Under the pieces are notes generated by a model. The model searched no databases and had not been told where the DNA came from. It saw nothing but the letters and a program-made list of their open reading frames with translations. From an uncultured Oscillatoriales cyanobacterium (lineage in GTDB: Bacteria; Cyanobacteriota; Cyanobacteriia; Cyanobacteriales; Microcoleaceae), in the NCBI GenBank assembly GCA_903893625.1, contig CAITND010000109.1:1-47186 (forward strand): a stretch of 47,186 nt of DNA, given 5' to 3'. Each line of letters opens with the position of its first letter. Position 1 is the first letter of the stretch. Shown here in pieces: positions 9,164 through 21,959 of the stretch. Position numbers and translations under genes: made by a program.

Positions 9164-9567
9164 AGATTTTTCTCCCTTGATTAGAACAGTGTTTCATCGT
9201 CATGGGTAGAAGGTATCATGCCCTTTGTCCTAATGAACCATCTTGTAACGAAGTTTAATCGTTGGGGGGGTAATCTTTACAGTTTGTTACAAATCCAGGA
9301 AGATAGAATCCGCCGGAACGTCTAAACATAAGTAATTTCCGCGTTGGAGATTTGTTAACAAAAACAGAATTCCTGGGTAAGCTTTCTAGTATCAACGATA
9401 TTTCTATTTACGCTAAAAATTCTGTATACGACTGACTAACTTAGGGATAGGATGCACCGGATTCGGGTTTACTTGTAGTGCTGTATCAATTAATACAGAA
9501 CTAATTAACGTTTAACCAGGTTCCGGCTTTCAATCAATCACCAACATAAAATTTAGGTTTTTTGGAT
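9164..9567. promoter_or_regulatory. Divergent promoter region before the RTX/Calx-beta gene
   Basis: About 400 bp without a gene. It must carry the promoters of the 65-residue protein (leftward) and of the RTX protein (rightward). Visible structures are a hairpin CTGTAT-CAATTA-ATACAG at 9481-9498 and an inverted pair TTGTAAC (9243-9249) / GTTACAA (9285-9291). Neither matches an operator I can name. Confidence 0.45.
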
Positions 9568-12500
9568 ATGACACAACTTATTGGTACTGCGAGTGATGAT
9601 TTCCTTGTTGGGACACCCGAACCCGATGAAATACTAGGATTTGCTGGAAACGACACCTTACAAGGATTAGCGGAAAACGATACCCTTAACGGGGGTCAAG
9701 ATCAAGATTTGCTATCTGGGGGTACAGGCAATGATCTGCTGTTTGGGGATATTGGCAACGATACCCTAGAAGGAGAATCAGGAGATGACATTGTTTATGG
9801 CAATGCTGGGGATGATCAACTAAATGGTGGTGAAGGTAACGATATCCTTCATGGCGGACAAGGCAACGATACCCTATTTGATAGTAGTGGAAATGATCAA
9901 CTATTTGGAGATAGAGGAAACGACCTTCTATATAGTGGAACTGGGAAGAATGAACTCACTGGAGGCGGGGGTTCCGATGTATTTGTAATTGGTCGAGAAC
10001 TGATAGATAGCGAAGTTGATCTAATTAATGATTTTAGAATTGGAGTTGATTTAATTGGGTTAACAAATAAATTGAAATTTGCTGATTTGCGGTTTGTTCA
10101 AGTTGGAAACGATACCGTAATTGAAGATAAAGTTAGTAATCAACAACTAATTATTATCCAAGAAACCCAAGCTACAACTCTGAATAATCAAGCTAACTTT
10201 ACTCAATCTATCGAAAGTCTTACCCCGGTTATTGAGTTTACCAATAATGAGTCCCTGCTAGTCAAAGAAGGCGAAACACCAGCCCTATTCGTCAACGTTC
10301 AACGGGCGGGTTCTCCGTTTAATACTGTTAGTGCAACCTTAGAATTACAACCCGACACCGCTACCGCCAGCGATGTCAACCTACAACCCATAGAAATCGT
10401 TTTCAAACCTTACGAAACTTTCAAAATAGTTCCTATTCCCCTAACCGTTATTGATGATCAACAAACCGAACCTAATGAAAGCTTTAACTTAATCCTAACC
10501 AACCCCACCTCTGGAGCAACCCTGGGAACATCCCAAAAAATTGTTGTCAGCTTACAAGATAATGATAACAGTTCACAGGGAACTACCCCCCCAACAGATT
10601 CAGTACCATCTATAGTTCTTCCGCTCCAGCCATCTTCATCCCAGATTAGCCTGTCTTTGTCTCCGGCGACAATCCTTGAAAACGGCCAAGAAAACCTAGT
10701 TTATACCTTTACACGAGAGGGTGGTTCCCTAAACCTACCCATTAACGTGAACTTCACCGTCGGAGGGACAGCACAACTGGGGGAAAACTATACCGTTATT
10801 GACAACCCCGGCTTTACTAACACTGGGGGCAGCGTTTCCTTCCCGGAAAATAGTACCATCGCCACCCTGAAAATCGCTCCCATCAACAATGATCTATTTC
10901 AAGAAAACCCCCTAACTATTGATATCAGCTTAAAAGAATCCGGTTTTTTATATACCGCTAATCCTCAACAATCTACAGCGTTGGGAAGCATCCAGAGCGA
11001 AGATCTCCCACCCAAACCCCCGGTTTATAACTTTAGTCAACCTGAATTTTCCATCTTTGAAGGTGATCCAAATGTTCCTCGTGTCGCTACGATCACGGTT
11101 AACCGTACTTTTGATACCAGCCAGCAATCAAGTGTCAAAATTCTCCTCGCCCCGGCCCCGCAGAATGGCGGAACACCCGGCGTTGATGTCGAACCCACGG
11201 AAATCGTCCTCCAATTTGCCCCGGGCCAGACTGAGAATACTTTTCAAATCCCGATTATTGGTGATAACGACATTGAATCTTCAGAGGCAATTATCTTATC
11301 CTTTGCGCCAGACGCTTTTCTACCCACCGGACAAGCTGGAACCCTTCAGCCCACAGCCAACTTAGTTATTAACGACGACGATGGCCCCACTACCTACGAT
11401 TTCACAGAACCTCTATTCAAAACCCTTGAAGGTAACTCAAGTAATATTACCCAACTGGTAGAAATTTCTCGTTCTGGGGATGTTAATATAGACTCCTCCG
11501 TCTCAGTTAACGTCACCGGGACTAACGCTATTCCCAATATAGATTTTGTTCCCGGGCCAATCACCGTTAACTTCACCGCCGGACAAATCACCCAAACTGT
11601 CCCGATCACCATTCTGGGCAACCTAACACCCAATCAAAACCGAACCCTAAATTTATCCCTAAATCCCACCCTAGGTAATTTAGTTGGAAACCAGCATCCC
11701 ACCTCGGAGTTACTCGTTGTTGACGACGATAACGTTCCCACTTATGATTTTACCACTAATATTTATCGGATACGCGAGAACAACAGTGATATTACCTACA
11801 GTGAAATCACCGTAATTCGCTCAGGAAAACTTAATGTTAACTCATCGGTGACAGTGGACTTAAATACGGTTCCCCAAAACGGAGCAACTCCAGGAGATGA
11901 CTTTACCCCATCGGAAATTCCCCTACAATTTGCACCTGGGGAAATTAGCAAAACTCTACAAGTTACAATTAAAGGAGACAAAATATCCGAATCCGCCGAA
12001 ACCGTTGCCCTGTCATTTTCCAAATTCGACAACGGTGGACAAACCGGAACCACAGTCCCGGAAGCTGCTCTAATCATTGAAGATGATGATTCCCCACCAA
12101 GCTATAATTTTGTCGAGGCCAACTACAGCGTCGATGAAGGAGACAGCACTAGCTTGTTCAGTCAAGTCCAAGTAAGTCGCTCAGGAGATATTAGTCAAAC
12201 ATCTAGTGTTGATGTGGTGTTGACCTCTGGTACAGCGATCGCTAATACCGACTTTACACCCAGCACCCCACAAAGAATTCAATTTGCTCCCAACCAAGAC
12301 ATACAAACCGTTTCTCTGGGAATTGTTGGCAACACCAAGGTTCAACCAGACCGCAGTTTTGGACTATCCTTCAATAATTTTGATAAAAACGGAGTAGCCG
12401 GAGACACAACCCCCACCAGTACCGTCACTATCAAAGATGACGACAAAGCCACTCTCACTTTGACTACTGTAGAAGCTACGGCCACGGAACCTATAACTAC

Positions 12501-13929
12501 AAAAGTTCCAGACGAAAAGCCCCAAAACGGAGTTTATCGGATTAGTCGCGCCCCCGATACTTATGGGGACTTAACTATCAACCTCGCCCTAACACCTGAT
12601 AAAATTACTGCCGATGACTACACCCTGACAACTTCAACGGGGCAAACCGTCACGATTAATAATGATTCTACCGCCGTCTTTACCCTTCCCAATGACCAAT
12701 CCAGTATGGATATCATTCTGACTCCTATCGATGATATTCCGGCAGAAGCTTCGGAATCCTTGACCTTGGCTTTGGCGGAAGGAAATTACAAAATTAGTCC
12801 CAAAGAAAACACCGCGACGGTCACTATTCTAGCAAATGATACTGCTGTTACCCAACTGGGTGATACCAACAGTCAAGCACCGGAAGACTATGCCCTTGTA
12901 CAAGGTTCCTTACGTCAAGCCATTCTGAATGCTCAGTCCTTACCCGGTGAAGATACGATTACCTTTGTTGATCAAGCATCTTCAGGGGTGATTAACCTCA
13001 CGGGCGCTTTACCTGCCCTCAACAGCGATATCATCTTCGATGGGACAGGAGCGGATCAACTTAGTATTCGTCGGGATACCGGAGGGGACTATAACATTTT
13101 TAACGTGAATGGAGGCAATGTCACCCTTGAGGGATTGAAACTAAGCAACGGCTTCCCGGCTGGAACCATACCCACTAGTTCTAGCACGACCACAGGTAGC
13201 CGAGGCGGTGCGATTAATATTACCTCATCTACCAGTAACGTTAAATTGATCGATAGTTGGCTAGATGGAAACCAAGCGAATAATGGTGGTGCGATCGCTA
13301 ATTCTGGGAAACTCACCATTCAAAACAGTACCATTAGCAATAACACGGGTAGCAATGGCGGTGGATTAATTGTGATTGATGGTCAAGTCCAAATTATTAA
13401 CAGCACCATTGCTAAAAATACAGGCACCATCGGCGGAGGTATATTTAACTCCGTTGCTGAGTTGACTATTACCAATAGTACGATTGCTTTCAATAATGCC
13501 ACCGGAAACAGTGGCGGGGTCAGAAATATTGGGGGGGTCAGCAACCTGAAAAATACTATTATTGCCAGCAACACCGCCCCTCTTAACCCCGATGTCGGGG
13601 CATCCATAGAATTTGCCTTCAACAGTAGTGGCAACAACCTCATCGGAAACGGAACGGGAGGACAAGGTTTAGTCAATGGGGTTAATAATGATATTGTTGG
13701 CAGTGCCACTGTCCCCATTGATCCGTTACTGAATCCTTCTTTACAAAATAACGGCGGCACCACACCCACCCTAGCCCTAGCCATCACCAGCCCTGCTATT
13801 AACGTAGGAAATAACAGCTTTGCTATCCCCTATACTGATCCCGGACTGTTTGACCAACGGGGGGCAAACTTTACCCGGATTGTTAACAACATCATTGATA
13901 TTGGAGCTTTTGAATCTCAACTGCTGTAA
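9568..13929 (+). CDS. RTX repeat / Calx-beta / beta-helix secreted protein
   Basis: A 1453-residue modular protein, probably exported by a type I system because it has RTX repeats and no signal peptide. Residues 1 to about 140 hold roughly ten GGxGxDxLx Ca2+-binding nonapeptides (GNDTLNGGQDQDLLSGG and similar). About 220-1100 is a chain of Calx-beta-like domains, each ending in a D/E-rich NDDDG or KDDDK linker. About 1110-1400 is a parallel beta-helix region opening with QGSLRQAILNAQSLPGEDTITF and rich in NGGAI and NSTI turns. The C-terminus (LQNNGGTTPTLALAITSPAINVGN...DQRG...DIGAFES) matches the choice-of-anchor Q type end. ATG 9568 is preferred over the upstream TTG at 9562. RTX repeats are here at the N-terminus, not the usual C-terminus. 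Role is likely surface or extracellular adhesion. Confidence 0.88.
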   Translation: MTQLIGTASDDFLVGTPEPDEILGFAGNDTLQGLAENDTLNGGQDQDLLSGGTGNDLLFGDIGNDTLEGESGDDIVYGNAGDDQLNGGEGNDILHGGQGNDTLFDSSGNDQLFGDRGNDLLYSGTGKNELTGGGGSDVFVIGRELIDSEVDLINDFRIGVDLIGLTNKLKFADLRFVQVGNDTVIEDKVSNQQLIIIQETQATTLNNQANFTQSIESLTPVIEFTNNESLLVKEGETPALFVNVQRAGSPFNTVSATLELQPDTATASDVNLQPIEIVFKPYETFKIVPIPLTVIDDQQTEPNESFNLILTNPTSGATLGTSQKIVVSLQDNDNSSQGTTPPTDSVPSIVLPLQPSSSQISLSLSPATILENGQENLVYTFTREGGSLNLPINVNFTVGGTAQLGENYTVIDNPGFTNTGGSVSFPENSTIATLKIAPINNDLFQENPLTIDISLKESGFLYTANPQQSTALGSIQSEDLPPKPPVYNFSQPEFSIFEGDPNVPRVATITVNRTFDTSQQSSVKILLAPAPQNGGTPGVDVEPTEIVLQFAPGQTENTFQIPIIGDNDIESSEAIILSFAPDAFLPTGQAGTLQPTANLVINDDDGPTTYDFTEPLFKTLEGNSSNITQLVEISRSGDVNIDSSVSVNVTGTNAIPNIDFVPGPITVNFTAGQITQTVPITILGNLTPNQNRTLNLSLNPTLGNLVGNQHPTSELLVVDDDNVPTYDFTTNIYRIRENNSDITYSEITVIRSGKLNVNSSVTVDLNTVPQNGATPGDDFTPSEIPLQFAPGEISKTLQVTIKGDKISESAETVALSFSKFDNGGQTGTTVPEAALIIEDDDSPPSYNFVEANYSVDEGDSTSLFSQVQVSRSGDISQTSSVDVVLTSGTAIANTDFTPSTPQRIQFAPNQDIQTVSLGIVGNTKVQPDRSFGLSFNNFDKNGVAGDTTPTSTVTIKDDDKATLTLTTVEATATEPITTKVPDEKPQNGVYRISRAPDTYGDLTINLALTPDKITADDYTLTTSTGQTVTINNDSTAVFTLPNDQSSMDIILTPIDDIPAEASESLTLALAEGNYKISPKENTATVTILANDTAVTQLGDTNSQAPEDYALVQGSLRQAILNAQSLPGEDTITFVDQASSGVINLTGALPALNSDIIFDGTGADQLSIRRDTGGDYNIFNVNGGNVTLEGLKLSNGFPAGTIPTSSSTTTGSRGGAINITSSTSNVKLIDSWLDGNQANNGGAIANSGKLTIQNSTISNNTGSNGGGLIVIDGQVQIINSTIAKNTGTIGGGIFNSVAELTITNSTIAFNNATGNSGGVRNIGGVSNLKNTIIASNTAPLNPDVGASIEFAFNSSGNNLIGNGTGGQGLVNGVNNDIVGSATVPIDPLLNPSLQNNGGTTPTLALAITSPAINVGNNSFAIPYTDPGLFDQRGANFTRIVNNIIDIGAFESQLL

Positions 13930-14124: not shown

Positions 14125-16275
14125 TTATTTCACCCCAGCGGCACGGGCAGCGGCAGCTTCATCGGGATGAATATTCAGACGAGTCAGATTAATCCGACCT
14201 TTACTGTCAATCTCCCGAACCTTAACAATCACCTCATCCCCCACAGAAACCTCATCCTCAACACGAGGAACCCGGTAGTCTGCTAATTGGGAAATATGAA
14301 TCATTCCTTCTTTACCTGGGAGTAATTCTACAAAGGCGCCAATGGGGATAATCCGAGTAATCCGGCCCACATACACATCCCCGGCATTGAGTTTGCGGGT
14401 CATCCCTTGAATAATTTGATAGGCACGGGCGGCATTTTCGCTATCCGTTGAAGCAATTGTCACCGTGCCATCATCATCAATATCAATCTTGACCCCGGTT
14501 TCTTCGGTAATCCCCTTAATAGTTTTCCCACCAGGGCCAATTACCAAACCAATCAAATCAGGATCGATTTTTAACGTTAACAACCGAGGCGCGTAGGGAG
14601 ATAAATCAGAACGAGGTTTGCCAATCACCTCTAACATTTTTTCCAGGATATGCAGTCGGGCAGGTTTGGCTTGATAAATGGCATCCGCCACCGTTTTCAT
14701 CGACAACCCAGTAATTTTCATATCCATTTGCAGGGCGGTAACACCTGTATCCGTTCCCGCCACTTTGAAGTCCATATCTCCCAGGAAGTCTTCAATTCCT
14801 TGAATATCCGTGAGAATCCGAATTTCTTCCCCTTCTTTAATTAATCCCATCGCCGCCCCACTCACGGGTTTAGAAATCGGAACCCCGGCATCCATCAACG
14901 CCAAAGTCGATCCACACACCGAACCCATTGAGGTTGAACCGTTAGAAGACAATACTTCCGACACCACCCGAATCACATAAGGAAACTGATCTTTAGAAGG
15001 CAATACAGGAACTAAGGCCCGTTCTGCTAAAGCTCCATGACCAATTTCTCGCCGTCCCGGTGCCCGCATGGGTTTGGTTTCCCCAACGGAATAAGGGGGA
15101 AAGTTGTAATGGTGCATATAGCGTTTTTCTTCTTGGGGATGCAAATCATCCAAATCCTGAGCATCTCCCGGTGTTCCCAAGGTGGCAATGGACAATACCT
15201 GAGTTAAACCCCGATTAAATAAACCACTCCCATGTACCCGTTTCGGTAAACAACTGACCTTACAGGATACCGGACGTACTTGATCTAAGCTGCGACCATC
15301 AACCCGGACACTATCTTGGACAATTTGCTGACGCATCAATTCCTTGGTGATGTCTTTGAAAATCTGACTCACCAATTTAGACTCTTCCGTTGTTGCAACC
15401 CGTATCGGATCGTCTTCGGGTAACGCCTCAATGGGGGTAATAATTTCTCGTTCCTTGATTTCATCCAAGTTGGCATCCCGTGCCGTTTTATCCAGGTCGT
15501 GTTGTTGGAGAACTTGTTTAACGGGGAGAGTAACACGATCGCGGATAAACTGGATTAACCCCTGATTTCCTTCCGGTGGTTCTCCTGGTTTTAATTCAAT
15601 CCCCAAGTCTCTCATTAATTCCTCTTGGGCCTTGATTAAATCACAAACTGCTTCATAACCAAAATCGATCGCCTCGATGATATCCTGTTCTGGCAGTTGG
15701 TTCGCACCCGCTTCTACCATCACCACGCCATCAGGGGAACCCGCCACGACTAAATCCAAATCCCCATTCTTTACTTCTCGGTAAGTTGGATTAATAATAA
15801 AATCATCTCCAACTAATCCCACCCGTACCGCAGCCATCGGCCCAAAAAAGGGAATTCTTGCCAAAATCACTGCCACAGAAGCACCCGTCACCGCTAACAC
15901 ATCCGGGGGTACTTGCTCATCCATTGACAAGGTTGTGGCTACAACCTGAATATCATCGCGTAACCAATGGGGAATTAGAGGACGTAAGGGACGGTCAATT
16001 AAACGGCTAGTTAGGGTGACGCGATCGGGTGGACGACCTTCCCGACGTAAGAATCCCCCTGGAATTCTTCCCCCGGCGTACAGTCGCTCTTCATAGTCCA
16101 CCAACAAGGGTAGAAAATCTAATCCGGGTCTGCCTTCGGCGCGAGTCGCAGTCACTAGAACTGATGTATCTCCAGACTCGATTAAAACGGCTCCACCTGC
16201 CTGTGGCGCAAGTAAACCTATTTTGAGTCGAATATCCCGTCCATCAAAGGATATTGACTTAATGATCTCTTCCAT
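14125..16275 (-). CDS. pnp: Polyribonucleotide nucleotidyltransferase (PNPase)
   Basis: A 716-residue PNPase: a phosphate-dependent 3'-5' exoribonuclease, which in cyanobacteria also makes heteropolymeric RNA tails. Two RNase PH-like domains (about 1-230 and 310-545) are joined by a helical domain. The second carries [15 protein letters not shown] and the [22 protein letters not shown] catalytic segment. A KH domain (about 555-620, [14 protein letters not shown]) and an S1 domain (about 625-700, [29 protein letters not shown]) follow, the usual order. The ATG at 16273-16275 is preceded on its strand by AAGGAAG. It is convergent with the RTX gene and has a 502-bp upstream gap. Confidence 0.97.
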
Positions 16276-16777
16276 GTATTTTATCTTCCTTCTTCTTCTG
16301 TCGATTCTCTCTCTGTCGTCATCGTAACACGGTGATGAGCATGGGTAAGGAGTGTTTAAACGCTCGCAGTCAACCCTTAGTCATGAACAGTTAACAGTCT
16401 TCTAGTCACGATTTTACAAGCAGAGAGGGAGTTTTAAAGTTGGACTGAGGTTTCTGATCTTCAATCTCATCCGACCTCTGGATTGAGGTTGATTTTGACT
16501 GACCTTTGTGTTTTAGAAACCTAAGTTCAGTTCTTCATTATAGTTCCTGACCCTCTCAATGAAATAATTCTGCTCTGCAAATATCAGTTTGATAGGACTC
16601 CTGACAAAATGACCCCTGTTTTTCCTGTAACATTAACAGAATATAATCTCAGTAGGAATAGAATTGACAGCCTAACATTAAGCTGTGATCGCTCAATTCG
16701 CGGTGAGTGTTAGGAAATTGGTATTCTTTGGAGAAGAATAGTAAGGGCGATCGCCTTCAATAATCAACAATACAATC
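16276..16777. promoter_or_regulatory. Divergent region between pnp and the ATPase gene
   Basis: A 502-bp gene-free stretch. A TATAAT at 16642-16647 is a plausible -10 element for the rightward ATPase operon, though I see no good -35. CCTAACA (16671-16677) and TGTTAGG (16708-16714) are complementary and would form a stem around a 30-nt loop just downstream. A HIP1-like GCGATCGCC is at about 16748. I see no gene in it. Confidence 0.45.
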
Positions 16778-18154
16778 ATGAAAATTAAAGTCAAAAATCT
16801 TGGGGTTTTAAAACAAGCTGAATTCACTTTGGGCGACCTAACAATCTTATGTGGCTGTAATAATACGGGCAAGACCTATGCCACTTATGCGTTATTTGGC
16901 TTTTTGTCTATTTGGCAACGGATGTTTTCGATTGAAATCAGTGATGACAAAATTGATCAACTCCTCGCTGATGGGGTCATTCATCTTGATATACAAGAAT
17001 ATGTTAAACAGTCTGAGCAGATTATTATTAAAGCTTGTCAAGAATATACTCAACAATTACCTAAGATTTTTGCAACATCAACTGAACGTTTTAGAAAAAC
17101 AGAGTTTCAAGTAGAACTCAATACCAATAATATTAGGTTAATAGACAGATTTGAACTAACCATCGGATCTACAAATACCGAAATATTTTCAATTATTAAA
17201 ACTGAAGATAGCACAAAATTAATTGTTACTCTATTAGTTGAGAAAGAAAATATAAAAATTCCGATTGATATTGTGAAACGTACTATTGCTGATGCTCTGA
17301 AAGATATTATTTTTTCTCCGCTTTTTCCTCGTCCTTTCATTGCTAGTGCAGAGCGAACAGGTGTTGCTATTTTTCGTAAAGAGTTAAATTTTGCCCGGAA
17401 TCGCTTGCTTGAAGAAATGGGTAAGAATATCAATCCAATGGAGCTTTTATTCAAAGTTTATGACGATTACGCCCTACCAATTAAGAAAAATGTAGATTTT
17501 ATTCAACAACTTGAAACACTTGTCAAAAAAAGTAGTTTTATTGCCGAGAATTACCCAGATATATTAGTCGATTTTGCTAATATTATTGGGGGTGAGTATA
17601 CCGTTACCCAAAACGACGAACTTTACTATGTACCCAAGGGTAAACGAATTAAACTTTCAATGGATGAAAGTTCTAGTGCTGTGCGTTCTCTATTAGATAT
17701 TGGTTTTTACCTGCGACATGAAGCGCAACAGGGTGATTTACTGATGATAGACGAACCCGAACTTAATTTACACCCCGAAAATCAGCGCCGTGTTGCTCGA
17801 ATTTTCGCTCGATTAGTTAATCTTGGAATTAAGGTTTTTATCACAACTCACAGTGATTATATTGTTAAAGAATTGAATACCTTAATTATGCTTAACCATG
17901 ATAAACCTCATCTCAAAGCAATTGCTGAACAAGAAGGTTATCGACCCGAAGAACTCATTTCTTATGATAAACTAAAAGTTTATATTGCAGAAGCAGCACT
18001 CATCAAACTAGAAGGGAGTCATAAAAAAACAAAATGCCAAACTCTAACACCCGCAGATATTAACCCAGAACTTGGGATTGAAGCTCGAAGTTTTGATCCA
18101 ACAATTGAAACCATGAACCGAATTCAAGAAGCAATTGTTTGGGGTGCGGAGTAA
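16778..18154 (+). CDS. AAA/ABC-type ATPase of the OLD-like (AAA_15) class
   Basis: A 458-residue ATPase of the RecF/OLD-like group, whose members often power defence systems. The N-terminus is MKIKVKNLGVLKQAEF, then Walker A at residues 26-33 (GCNNTGKT). A long helical insertion occupies about 50-280. A signature-like segment MDESSSAVRSLLDIGF precedes Walker B and the D-loop (LLMIDEPELNLHPENQ, about 320-335), then the H-switch FITTHSDYIVKEL. Unlike OLD nucleases it shows no C-terminal Toprim domain: after the H-switch there is only about 100 residues ending in ETMNRIQEAIVWGAE. The nuclease role is presumably supplied in trans by the next gene, whose ATG overlaps this stop by one base (TAATG). 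Start ATG 16778 has only a weak ribosome binding site. Confidence 0.85.
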   Translation: MKIKVKNLGVLKQAEFTLGDLTILCGCNNTGKTYATYALFGFLSIWQRMFSIEISDDKIDQLLADGVIHLDIQEYVKQSEQIIIKACQEYTQQLPKIFATSTERFRKTEFQVELNTNNIRLIDRFELTIGSTNTEIFSIIKTEDSTKLIVTLLVEKENIKIPIDIVKRTIADALKDIIFSPLFPRPFIASAERTGVAIFRKELNFARNRLLEEMGKNINPMELLFKVYDDYALPIKKNVDFIQQLETLVKKSSFIAENYPDILVDFANIIGGEYTVTQNDELYYVPKGKRIKLSMDESSSAVRSLLDIGFYLRHEAQQGDLLMIDEPELNLHPENQRRVARIFARLVNLGIKVFITTHSDYIVKELNTLIMLNHDKPHLKAIAEQEGYRPEELISYDKLKVYIAEAALIKLEGSHKKTKCQTLTPADINPELGIEARSFDPTIETMNRIQEAIVWGAE

Positions 18155-18702
18155 TGTCTGATATTGCTATTCTCAAAGAGATGATCAAAGAAACCGCTAC
18201 GGTAGCATTAGAAAAAGATGACTACAACAAAAAGATAGTTATACTCAGAGAACCTCCACCTGCAAACTATTCGGTAACAATTCATGAAATGCCTAATGAT
18301 GATGAGGTCATTATTATCAAAGCAGATACTTTTAGCTCACCTGACAAAGTTTTTCAAGGAAAGAAGGATGAATGTAAGCGTGCAGATTTTGTTATTATTG
18401 CTAATACTGACAAGAAAAAAGTCATTCTCTGTATTGAGATGAAAGCGGGTAAAGCAGATAATACTATAATCATCCAACAGCTTAAAGGAGCACAGTGTTT
18501 TGTTGCTTATTGTCGGGAAATAGGTCAGGTATTTTGGAATAATCGAAATTTTCTTAAAGGTTATAAGTATCGTTTTATTAGTATTAAGGATATTCGTGTT
18601 CCTAAGAAACCATCACGGACTAACACTGCTATTCATGATTGTCCAGAGCGAATGCTTAAAATTAGTTCTCCAAAACACATTAAATTCAATCACTTGATCT
18701 AA
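18154..18702 (+). CDS. Small PD-(D/E)XK nuclease-like partner of the ATPase
   Basis: A 182-residue protein I cannot place in a named family. Its core reads like a PD-(D/E)XK nuclease: D78 in KRADFVII, a short turn, then ILCIEMKAGKA with E95-x-K97 at the end of the next strand, then IIIQQLKGAQCFVAYC with Q108/Q109 on the following helix. This order (D, ExK, Q) is the known signature of that fold. The start is ATG 18154, which overlaps the ATPase stop as TAATG with GCGGAG upstream; an upstream TTG at 18139 would lie inside the ATPase gene and is unlikely. The coupling implies fixed stoichiometry with the ATPase. The C-terminal 50 residues are basic (KKPSR..KHIKFNH). An alternative is a non-catalytic nuclease fold used only for nucleic acid binding. 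Confidence 0.75.
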   Translation: MSDIAILKEMIKETATVALEKDDYNKKIVILREPPPANYSVTIHEMPNDDEVIIIKADTFSSPDKVFQGKKDECKRADFVIIANTDKKKVILCIEMKAGKADNTIIIQQLKGAQCFVAYCREIGQVFWNNRNFLKGYKYRFISIKDIRVPKKPSRTNTAIHDCPERMLKISSPKHIKFNHLI

Positions 18703-18736
18703 AAACTAGATCATGAAATACTTCTAAAAACTCTTC

Positions 18737-19002
18737 TTAACGTGAGTTCGATGGGTTGCGATCGCATCTCAACAGGAGAGTGGGTGAGCGATCGCATCTC
18801 AGTAGGAGAGTGGGTGAGTGCTTATTAAATTTAAAATTCTTATAGAACCTGTTTACTATTTCTAATTAATTATTAGATCTCAAGAAATTTTAAAAAAAAG
18901 CTCAAGCCTAGAAACTTAGCGATTGATAGCTTCTGCTATCGGCTTAAGCATTGAAATCATCTACTTAGCTTAACTAACTTTTAGCCATCGAACTCACGTT
19001 AA
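18737..19002. mobile_element. MITE-like element with 18-bp terminal inverted repeats
   Basis: TTAACGTGAGTTCGATGG (18737-18754) is exactly reverse-complemented at 18985-19002, giving a 266-bp element with no coding capacity. If TTAA at each end is a target-site duplication, the inverted repeats proper are 14 bp (CGTGAGTTCGATGG). It contains two 30-bp direct repeats at 18758-18817, each beginning with GCGATCGC. It lies between the nuclease-like gene and vapC; its right end is one base from the vapC stop. No transposase is present, so a full-length parent elsewhere in the genome would be needed. Confidence 0.8.
18758..18817. repeat. Two 30-bp direct repeats with HIP1 cores
   Basis: Units 18758-18787 and 18788-18817 begin GCGATCGCATCTCA and end GGAGAGTGGGTGA, differing at two positions. 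They lie inside the MITE-like element. Confidence 0.85.
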
Positions 19003-19003
19003 T

Positions 19004-19390
19004 TTAAAAAATGTTAGCCATTGGATAAGAAATAATTGCCTTATCTTCTGTTATAATGATTAAATCATGCTCTAAAGATTGACAAAGCAAAAGACGATCA
19101 AACGGATCATTATGTAAAGGAGGTAATTTTGCTAATTGAGTAATCGTAGTTTCATCAATAGATAAACTAGAAATCAGATGTCTTTCACGCTGTTTGGGAA
19201 GGTAAATTTCAGGGGATTCTGGTAAAGGTAATTTTCCTAATTGATATTTAATCGTCGTTTCCCAAACAGAAACTACACTGAGATAAATTTCGTTATCTCG
19301 ATTACTAATAGCATCATAATATTTTCCAGACAATCGTTTATTATTAGTAATAAACCAGAGAAATATATGAGTATCTAAGAGTATTTTCAT
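19004..19390 (-). CDS. PIN-domain toxin, VapC family
   Basis: A 128-residue PIN-domain ribonuclease, the toxin half of a type II toxin-antitoxin pair; such toxins cleave tRNA or other RNA. Acidic residues of the Mg2+ site are present: D6 (LLDTHIF), E44 (VWETTIKY), D98 (HNDPFDRLL) and D116 (ITEDKAI). The length is normal. Its start overlaps the antitoxin stop by 4 nt, indicating translational coupling. The stop codon lies two bases from the MITE-like element, so that element supplies whatever 3' signals the operon has. Confidence 0.92.
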   Translation of the reverse strand: MKILLDTHIFLWFITNNKRLSGKYYDAISNRDNEIYLSVVSVWETTIKYQLGKLPLPESPEIYLPKQRERHLISSLSIDETTITQLAKLPPLHNDPFDRLLLCQSLEHDLIIITEDKAIISYPMANIF

Positions 19391-19632
19391 GGATTTTCAA
19401 AAAGGTTAATAATTTCTTCAGGAAGGGGATCATTAAAATCATCAGGTACAACAAATTCACCTTCACATAAACCGATAGGACGAGGTTCTTTTTTGGGTTT
19501 ATTTGTGGCTATAGGTTTAATTTCAGCAATAGGTTGATCAGCTTGGGTAATAATTAAGCTGTTACCTTCTTGAATCAGTTTAATAAATTCCGATAAGTTT
19601 TGTTGAATCTCATCTATGTTTACGGTAATCAT
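19387..19632 (-). CDS. Phd/YefM-type antitoxin partner of VapC
   Basis: An 81-residue antitoxin beginning MITVNIDEIQQNLSEFIKLIQEG, the usual Phd/YefM N-terminus with its DNA-binding fold, followed by SLIITQADQPIAEIKP and an acidic, Pro-rich toxin-binding tail (FVVPDDFNDPLPEEIINLF). ATG 19632 is preferred because AAGAAAG precedes it and it matches family starts; an upstream in-frame ATG at 19662 would add ten atypical residues. It is the first gene of the operon and is expected to repress it. Confidence 0.9.
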   Translation of the reverse strand: MITVNIDEIQQNLSEFIKLIQEGNSLIITQADQPIAEIKPIATNKPKKEPRPIGLCEGEFVVPDDFNDPLPEEIINLFENP

Positions 19633-19669
19633 GGCGTTTCTTTCTTGATAGTTAACTTTCATATTGATT

Positions 19670-19858
19670 TTATATTGATTTCTTAATTAAGCTATTGTAG
19701 CATGAATTTTTGGAAATGGTATCATTACCAGAACCACTATTGAGAATGTCACTACCACCCAAGGCATTCAGGGTATCATTACCGGAGTTACCATTCAGAA
19801 ATTTTTTCATAAAAACTGAATTTCTTACAATTTTTGAAATACTTTTAAATAGTTTCAA
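19670..19858 (-). pseudogene. Fragment of an RTX (hemolysin-type Ca-binding) gene
   Basis: A 62-codon frame whose middle encodes RTX nonapeptide-like repeats (NGNSGNDTLNALGGSDILNSGSGNDTI) flanked by unrelated sequence. It has no partner domain or secretion signal and overlaps the 3' end of the DUF262 gene by 14 nt. It is most simply a scrap of a larger RTX gene of the kind intact at 9568, left by recombination. An active micro-peptide cannot be excluded. Confidence 0.55.
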
Positions 19859-21812
19859 TTTGCCAATCTTCGGAACTTAATCCGGCTCTTTCAATGGCTT
19901 TTAAGCAAAATGAATTAATATCTTCCGCACATAAGTTAACTTCAATAAAAGCCCCATTTTTTAGTTCTCTGGTGTATCTAAAATTTTGATGATTCCAATT
20001 TACTAAACGAGGATAGTCTATAATAAGTTCCTGAAACTTATCTTCATCTAAGTCAGCAACAACGTTTAGGGTTGTTTCTAATACATCGCGCCAAGTTTTA
20101 ACGGGATATTTTTTGTTAAGTACAGACAATACTGTGGGTTTTGTTCCTCTAACTTTAGCCACAGTATTGTCTTTAACCTCCCCAAAGTCAGGCCATATTT
20201 TCAGACAGATTTCTGCTAAAGATTCTGATCGATCTTCAATATCCTCCTTCTTCCAGGTGATTTTATTTTTAAAATACTCGTTTAATTCTAAATGACTTTC
20301 TAGCAAAATGTCCCGTTTTTTATCAAAAGGTTTATTAGAAAGTTCAGGATTATATCCTGTTAAAGTTAAGTTGCCAAGGGTATGCAGCAACAGTTGGTGA
20401 GTTGTTTCCCAATCTTCGCCTAAAGATTTTTCCCAATCTTTGTTGAGCTTTTGAGGCATAATGTGTTCGATTGAAAGATTATCGAAAGATACCCCTTCTT
20501 TATGACAGAATGATTGTTCGATTGATTCTAAAATTAGTTTGGCTTTTTCTGCCTTAACCCTAGTCGCATACAGTTCCACTTCTTTTAACATCAATTTAAA
20601 CTTATCATCACTGGGATAGTTTTTGTTAGCAAGAATTTCTTTTAACCCATCCATAAAGTTTTTGTCGATTTTTTGTTTAATTTGACTGTATAGAGAAGGA
20701 AACATTTTGTTGAGGGAGTTGGTAGGAAAGTTACAAACAAAACGACGAATAATAAAGTTTTCCAGAATCTTTAAGATTTCTACAAATTCATCAGCAGCAA
20801 ATTTATCGTGGCTGTAATCATCGTAACAATTTAGTAAAAATGGATAGACCGTAGTTAATTCTAGTCTTTTTATTCGCATCAGAAAATTACTAATAGCTTT
20901 GTTGATTTCCTTATTTGGCTCAATCAATTTATTATAGTAGTTGGCAAAATTAGCTAAATCTTCTAAAGATTCTAAAGCATTTTTAGCATTAACCTTATCC
21001 TTTAATGTCAAATAAACTTGATCTTTTTTAACTTCTCGACCCTCTTTCATTAAATAATGACGGATAAATTCAGTCAAATTATCGCCTAAAGCGACTTGCA
21101 TGGGTTCCCAATACTGAGCATAAATTGCCGCCTGTTGTTCCACATGAATTTTCATAAAGAAGTAGTTTCTAATTAAATCAGCTTCACTTAAAGCTTTTCC
21201 TTTCGCATTCAAACTTTCAAAAACCAGGTGCGGATTTTCGTCTGGATCTAAAACAATACTAACTAAGGAAAGACCACTAATAATCACTGTTGTAATTAAA
21301 CTTAATTCAATTTCTCTCTGACGTAATTTTTTATCAAAGAAGCGATAGCACTCATTAATTAAAGATTTATCAGAATTAGGAAAACCTTGATCAATAATGT
21401 GATGAAAATTGCAACGATCTGCCTGAGTAGGTTGTAGCTTATATTTTTCTAATCCTATTTCATAAGGATTAATTAGAATAGTATTATTGATTTTTTCTGC
21501 TATTTTATGTATTTGTTGTTGTTTGGCATGATCCCGAACAACAGCCAATAAAATTAAAATAGTTGTCAGTCTTTGTTGTCCATCAATTAATAAATATTTA
21601 GACACTCCTTCCGGGACAGAAACAGTTTGTAGGGTAACAATAGAACCCATAAAATGAGGTCTTATTGTTTCCTGTTCTGTCAAATCTATTAGATCGTCCC
21701 ATAAATTCTCCCATTCTTGACGTTCCCAGCTATAGAAACGTTGAAATAGGGGAACGAGATATTGTTGGGTTCCTTCTAGGATTTTTTGTAGTTTAGTTTC
21801 CGATGCTTTCAT
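19845..21812 (-). CDS. GmrSD-like DUF262/DUF1524 restriction protein
   Basis: A 655-residue protein with the architecture of GmrSD-type type IV restriction enzymes, which degrade modified (for example glucosylated hydroxymethylcytosine) phage DNA. The N-terminal DUF262 (ParB/Srx-like NTPase fold) shows VPLFQRFYSWE and the hallmark DGQQR (residues 77-81). A helical middle region follows. DUF1524 (about 445-505) carries the His-Me/HNH-type motif SIEHIMPQ and LLHTLGNLTLTGYNPELSN. The last 100 residues form an extra domain (RLVNWNHQNFRYTRELKNGAFIEVNL...). It is transcribed away from the SNF2 helicase gene with a 147-bp gap. Substrate specificity cannot be read from sequence. Confidence 0.88.
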   Translation of the reverse strand: MKASETKLQKILEGTQQYLVPLFQRFYSWERQEWENLWDDLIDLTEQETIRPHFMGSIVTLQTVSVPEGVSKYLLIDGQQRLTTILILLAVVRDHAKQQQIHKIAEKINNTILINPYEIGLEKYKLQPTQADRCNFHHIIDQGFPNSDKSLINECYRFFDKKLRQREIELSLITTVIISGLSLVSIVLDPDENPHLVFESLNAKGKALSEADLIRNYFFMKIHVEQQAAIYAQYWEPMQVALGDNLTEFIRHYLMKEGREVKKDQVYLTLKDKVNAKNALESLEDLANFANYYNKLIEPNKEINKAISNFLMRIKRLELTTVYPFLLNCYDDYSHDKFAADEFVEILKILENFIIRRFVCNFPTNSLNKMFPSLYSQIKQKIDKNFMDGLKEILANKNYPSDDKFKLMLKEVELYATRVKAEKAKLILESIEQSFCHKEGVSFDNLSIEHIMPQKLNKDWEKSLGEDWETTHQLLLHTLGNLTLTGYNPELSNKPFDKKRDILLESHLELNEYFKNKITWKKEDIEDRSESLAEICLKIWPDFGEVKDNTVAKVRGTKPTVLSVLNKKYPVKTWRDVLETTLNVVADLDEDKFQELIIDYPRLVNWNHQNFRYTRELKNGAFIEVNLCAEDINSFCLKAIERAGLSSEDWQIETI

Positions 21813-21959
21813 ATTTTTTAGGTATATTTCAACTAAAATTATTTAAGGCTTGATGTTAATGGTTTACCACTAAGGCTATTTTTCCAGTCCTTTCTCGTCG
21901 GTTGGGTTAACGCAAGAAAACCCAAAATATTTTTCCAGTTACAATTTTATCATATCAAT

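Follow-up and report, generated by a model that had tools for sequence, protein, structure and literature searches.

Locus and gene layout

We analyzed a two-gene locus on a 47,186-nucleotide stretch of DNA (hereafter the window) from an uncultured Oscillatoriales cyanobacterium (contig CAITND010000109.1 of assembly GCA_903893625.1). Two intact plus-strand genes, for an ATPase of 458 residues and a small nuclease-like effector of 182 residues, were confirmed in the list of open reading frames (ORFs) (Table 1). The ATPase gene runs from an ATG at 16778 to a TAA at 18152-18154, and the ATG of the effector gene (18154-18156, with its stop codon ending at 18702) overlaps it by one base to form a TAATG junction, which probably couples translation of the two genes. 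A longer effector ORF was also listed from a TTG at 18139; this start is unlikely, given that the alignment of most homologues begins at the ATG (MSDIAI...). An earlier description based on the DNA letters alone (the sequence-only reading) had proposed the pair as an undescribed two-gene defense system. Its account of the overlapping genes was confirmed. By contrast, the pair was found to be a well-preserved, ordinary cyanobacterial member of a catalogued anti-phage family and not a new kind of system.

Table 1. Coordinates of the gene pair and its features in the window.
Feature	Coordinates	Strand	Evidence
Sharp-edged module common to the window and same-genus genome G157 (different site)	16770..18737	+	92.9% identity over 1982 aligned columns, unrelated flanks
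OLD/ABC-type ATPase, 458 aa (PDC-M47A; putative PD-T4-4_A/WonA-like sensor)	16778..18154	+	profile matches, alignment, ABC-ATPase fold of model
Walker A GCNNTGKT, residues 26-33	16853..16876	+	K32 invariant in 12/12 and 31/31 aligned ATPases
Walker B/D-loop LLMIDEPELNLHP, residues 321-333	17738..17776	+	D325, E326 invariant in 12/12 aligned ATPases
H-loop TTHSD, residues 356-360	17843..17857	+	H358 invariant in 12/12 aligned ATPases
TAATG stop/start overlap	18152..18156	+	31/38 rows; 27/33 distinct by ATPase protein, window included
PD-(D/E)XK-like nuclease effector, 182 aa (PDC-M47B)	18154..18702	+	PADLOC match, alignment, model, structural look-up
Asp D78, catalytic candidate	18385..18387	+	36/36
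E95-x-K97, catalytic candidates	18436..18444	+	E 31/36, D 5/36 at 95; K97 36/36
Gln Q109, in helix following ExK strand	18478..18480	+	Q 36/36; model helix 103-128

Assignment to a catalogued family

Both gene products were matched by a candidate entry of PADLOC-DB 2.0.0, PDC-M47 (models PDLC04664 and PDLC04665-04669). The ATPase matched PDC-M47A with an E-value of 9.5e-245 (residues 1-457 on profile positions 1-460 of 461), and the adjacent effector matched PDC-M47B with an E-value of 1.2e-84 (residues 1-182 on positions 1-183 of 186). With the best models matched at full length, the same gene order and no difference measured, the window pair belongs to this family. The earlier label of 'undescribed' was thus wrong, because both genes are already covered at candidate level by PDC-M47, with tested relatives (PD-T4-4 and WonAB) at the level of the family. 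No paper naming PDC-M47 was found by full-text search of the open PMC literature, and the available text of PMC12988326 presents PDC entries as unvalidated candidates derived from 'guilt-by-embedding'.

PD-T4-4 was obtained by functional selection in E. coli (Vassallo et al. 2022, available text of PMC9519451); it is tabulated under PD(D/E)XK-type systems in an excerpt of PMC10952713. The window pair shares with PD-T4-4 its two-gene order, a partner with D...(E/D)xK...Q, and an ATPase that matched PD-T4-4_A (PDLC04033) over its full length (residues 1-457; E 4.6e-159). By contrast, the effector matched PD-T4-4_B on partial stretches and far more weakly than PDC-M47B (E 1.9e-6 and 2e-6), and the PD-T4-4_B-type effectors examined share 14-21% identity with it. 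When profiles were compared, the cyanobacterial effectors matched a PD-T4-4_B-type set with an E-value of 8.5e-6 and a probability of 83%, compared to 0.26 and 0.2% for one unrelated control (both E-values for a single comparison).

The ATPase also matched 37 plasmid and phage records, eight of which were opened. Directly after the ATPase in seven of these loci is a protein of 184-210 residues that matches the PDC-M47B and/or PD-T4-4_B models and shares D78, (E/D)95-x-K97 and Q109; in one of the seven, on a Serratia plasmid, the annotated ATPase gene is short. At the eighth locus, on an Enterococcus plasmid, a transposase gene takes the place of the effector. The aligned non-cyanobacterial plasmid and phage ATPases differ from that of the window (25-34% identity, with C-terminal gaps and with inserts elsewhere).

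WonAB of Vibrio, as described in the available text of Adams et al. 2025 (PMC12137116), consists of an OLD-type ABC ATPase and a PD-(D/E)xK nuclease, requires both genes and both active sites, aborts infection via translation inhibition and leaves chromosomal DNA intact. Its authors group it with PD-T4-4 and the 'OLD-ABC ATPase + novel REase' operon of an earlier survey (PMC12137116, in part), a grouping restated in the excerpted review PMC12409358, and a BREX survey (PMC12839542, in part) finds nucleases widely paired with OLD-ABC ATPases. The window pair is likened to WonAB by description and motif order. By motif order only, the defense-essential WonA sites K34, R182, E300 and H333 would have counterparts in K32, R193, E326 and H358, none of which varies among the 12 aligned ATPases, and WonB K71 would correspond to effector K97. 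WonAB differs in its location on a prophage and in the size of WonB (16.1 kDa, compared to 182 residues for the window effector).

PARIS (AriA/AriB) and Septu (PtuA/PtuB) likewise split an ABC ATPase from a nuclease, with DUF4435 as the label of AriB and HNH that of PtuB. The window ATPase matched AriA (6.5e-28) and PtuA (best 5.1e-11) more weakly than PDC-M47A or PD-T4-4_A. Membership in PARIS and in Septu was rejected, since the Pfam search of the effector at E≤1 gave neither DUF4435 nor HNH, in agreement with the sequence-only reading.

The ATPase and its partner

The OLD/RecF-like core noted for the ATPase was borne out by the presence of Walker A, Walker B and TTHSD motifs and by matches to AAA_15 (1e-25) and AAA_21 (3.3e-17), the sole Pfam models above cut-offs. 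Its structural model has an ABC-ATPase fold, with UvrA, RecN and MutS-type proteins among the fold neighbors. As had been stated, the protein lacks a detectable Toprim domain (no Pfam match at E≤1), and 98 residues follow the H-loop. PADLOC Old and GajA matches cover the ATPase parts of the protein; membership in OLD or Gabija was rejected, since the C-terminal Toprim nuclease domain of that class was undetected.

Searches of the effector against Pfam, NCBIfam, PHROGs and PDB sequences gave nothing significant, and PDB matches to lactate dehydrogenase (E 0.08-1.1) and mitochondrial ribosomal protein L2 (0.4-0.6) were judged to be due to chance. An alignment was made of 36 of 45 effector sequences; it contains that of the window and others from cyanobacteria, a Bacteroidota plasmid, Enterobacterales plasmids and a Vibrio phage. 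The nine sequences not aligned are L016, L017, L021, L025, L031, L033, L038, L045 and L046 (duplicate, near-duplicate, partial, truncated or too divergent); two of the aligned rows (L015 and L037) are from one genome, and in several rows an end is set by the match and not by the start or stop codon. Only the columns of D78, K97 and Q109 were fully invariant, and position 95 was either E or D. Judged by its residues, this pattern is the arrangement of a PD-(D/E)XK nuclease. The D78 and E95-x-K97 of the sequence-only reading were thus upheld, whereas the glutamine it had placed at position 108 (Q in 16 of 36 rows) is replaced by that at 109 (all 36).

An AlphaFold model of medium confidence placed strands at residues 79-84, 89-96 and 138-145 and a helix at 103-128, such that D78, E95, K97 and Q109 would fall on the expected strand-strand-helix core. 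Together with the invariant residues, this topology agrees with the nuclease-like partner that had been proposed. A Pfam scan of the 36 effectors gave HSDR_N_2 as the commonest weak match (8 members, best E 0.012) and PDDEXK_9 in two (0.054), which is suggestive of a nuclease at a level below significance. Among the 50 structural matches listed, 36 are or contain nucleases (by titles and recall), and the remaining 14 include six acetyl-CoA carboxylase entries; because all Z-scores were 5.5 or less, the PD-(D/E)XK fold is supported and not proven. The effector profile model found no match in 14 control genomes.

Conservation of the pair

Pairing was examined in two locus sets, one of 10 true loci (12 minus two false) and one of 28 further loci of the phylum, with four genomes in both. 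An ATPase homologue lies directly upstream of the effector in 10/10 and 27/28 loci, respectively, as expected of a conserved pair. At L045 the effector is truncated, and at L046 the ATPase is present (37%) and the effector was detected by profile and not by tblastn. Rejected were L018 and L019, which we take from their sequence to be ribosomal protein L2, matched via the common peptide CIEMKAGK, and L047, a weak match (6.3e-4) with internal stops and without an ATPase. All ten named homologues of the first set are cyanobacterial, and genome G374, of the same order, and Desmonostoc muscorum FACHB-395 encode identical ATPase proteins (L065 and L010, respectively). Throughout the phylum, family matches were found in 29 of 386 sampled genomes, including that of the window. 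The TAATG junction was kept in most rows (Table 1).

Pairwise distances of ATPase and effector were correlated (r 0.81 for 31 pairs, with 0 of 2000 permutations as high) after removal of duplicates (L010, L081, L082 and L087) and of partial, truncated or too divergent sequences (L017, L079, L089 and L090). Part of this correlation stems from the common ancestry of the genomes. The effector diverges faster, with a mean identity of 54% compared to 70% for the ATPase over the 31 pairs. Relative to 10 chosen relatives, dN/dS was 0.09-0.24 for the ATPase and 0.16-0.45 for the effector, values that are rough since several dS exceed 1. Both genes are under purifying selection.

Neighborhood and mobility

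Ten genomes of the genus, including that of the window, were searched at the DNA level. In addition to the module of G157 (Table 1), the pair was found 98 bases before an SNF2 gene in G389, where the ATPase is cut by the contig end, and in G392 a remnant of 278 + 57 bases precedes that SNF2 gene; five other genomes gave no DNA match to the pair genes. The pair is thus polymorphic within the genus. In genome G387 the effector is intact and retains every catalytic candidate (L062:5465-6093, minus strand), whereas its ATPase gene is reduced to the last 25 codons, near a DDE transposase gene. When plasmids were queried with the effector, the one match was on a cyanobacterial plasmid, and close relatives were mostly on chromosomal contigs. 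No close relative was detected in viral contigs searched with a single ATPase protein query.

In the window, the pair lies between a polynucleotide phosphorylase gene (pnp) on the opposite strand (14125-16275) and, downstream, a PIN/Phd-like toxin-antitoxin pair followed by a GmrSD-type gene and an SNF2 helicase gene. The toxin-antitoxin and GmrSD-like neighbors of the sequence-only reading do exist (the Phd-like match, at 28.3 bits, is just below the cut-off of 29.8), and the block at 18737-21959 matched PADLOC Orf5 (5.3e-215) and HEC-06 (5.4e-83). They were rejected as part of the system. The block is separate from the pair, a distinct insertion that is missing both at the G392 remnant and between the pair and the SNF2 gene in G389. 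Of the PIN, Phd, GmrSD, pnp and SNF2 genes, none was detected (tblastn, E≤1e-8) near 37 other loci, whose flanks varied in length. This neighborhood looks private to the window genome. Directly 3' of the pair, a dispersed repeat (18738-18818) has further copies on several contigs of this and related genomes, and upstream is a gene (9562-13929) for a 1455-residue protein with Calx-beta (2.5e-47) and RTX calcium-binding repeats (5e-25).

Elsewhere, mfd (the gene for the transcription-repair coupling factor) adjoins the pair in seven (L010, L011, L013, L014, L016, L064 and L071) of the 32 loci distinct by ATPase protein, window excluded, some flanks being too short to show it. The identity of mfd rests on L010 (NCBIfam mfd, E 0); a partial match of 37% at L076 was not counted. 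Eight other flanking genes from five loci were mostly not defense genes, with trpS among the flanking genes. A protein of 185-187 residues follows the pair at L014:6652-7209, L015:2179-2736 and L016:6646-7209; the L014 copy matches Uma2, a putative restriction endonuclease (1.5e-34), and the other two are similar by their first residues. Downstream of the pair at L012:6999-7745 is a SocA/Panacea antitoxin-like gene (1.9e-21).

Proposed function and alternatives

We consider it likely that the pair combines an ATP-driven sensor with a small nuclease-like effector of the PDC-M47/PD-T4-4/WonAB-type anti-phage family. Direct support comes from the intact genes and their motifs, the invariant catalytic candidates, PADLOC homology, co-conservation, correlated divergence and purifying selection. 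The anti-phage role that had been proposed is likely by analogy to the tested relatives PD-T4-4 and WonAB. On this analogy, the ATPase would form a dimer around ATP and detect phage infection through one of its products or consequences, and it would license the PD-(D/E)XK nuclease encoded by the coupled downstream gene. The licensed nuclease would then cut nucleic acid and stop infection; the most likely route is arrest of the infected cell, comparable to the translation inhibition of WonAB, from which the licensing step and the RNA or translation target are taken over. An extended version, which we regard as highly improbable, is that cyanobacterial PDC-M47 effectors are PD-(D/E)XK-fold RNases, harmless alone and lethal only if licensed by ATP-bound ATPase, such that orphans can persist, and that the pair, settled beside mfd in several lineages, responds there to phage-stalled transcription.

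The ATPase might instead bring the nuclease to phage DNA for a restriction-like cut without host shutdown. Most titles among the structural matches listed are DNA endonucleases (BsmI, N.BspD6I, Bse634I, McrBC and EndoMS), and in the available text of PMC9519451 direct immunity is reported for seven of the 11 E. coli screen systems that have components of DNA-binding or cleavage-like type, a group of seven that may or may not include PD-T4-4. By contrast WonAB, the closest mechanistically studied relative, spared chromosomal DNA and inhibited translation (PMC12137116, in part). Fold similarity, moreover, cannot separate DNA from RNA substrates, and we view direct DNA targeting as somewhat unlikely.

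In PARIS, the effector is held by the ATPase and freed by phage activity. A similar toxin-antitoxin style of control, with the nuclease kept inactive by the ATPase until infection, would suit the AriA match and the coupled gene order. The intact G387 effector without its ATPase speaks mildly against a simple toxin-antitoxin pair, although this orphan may be unexpressed, and simple sequestration was excluded for WonAB because WonB overproduction was toxic only alongside WonA (available text of PMC12137116). Such control is unlikely here. A non-defense role as a cyanobacterial accessory of DNA repair or recombination appears very unlikely: the adjoining mfd, the repair-type fold neighbors of the ATPase and the mostly chromosomal location of close relatives (phages were outside the effector search that gave the single plasmid) would fit it, yet the family is patchy in the phylum, and among genomes of the genus some have a truncated pair and others give no DNA match to it. 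The faster evolution of the effector and the presence of more distant relatives on small plasmids, a phage and an integrative element (the last from the available text of PMC9519451) also argue against it.

With the claim of a new system removed, the locus falls within a cyanobacterial branch of a known defense family, a branch that is patchy yet recurs. The G387 orphan and the pinpointed residues (K32, R193, E326 and H358 of the ATPase; D78, E95, K97 and Q109 of the effector) make the distinction between licensing and antitoxin control directly testable.
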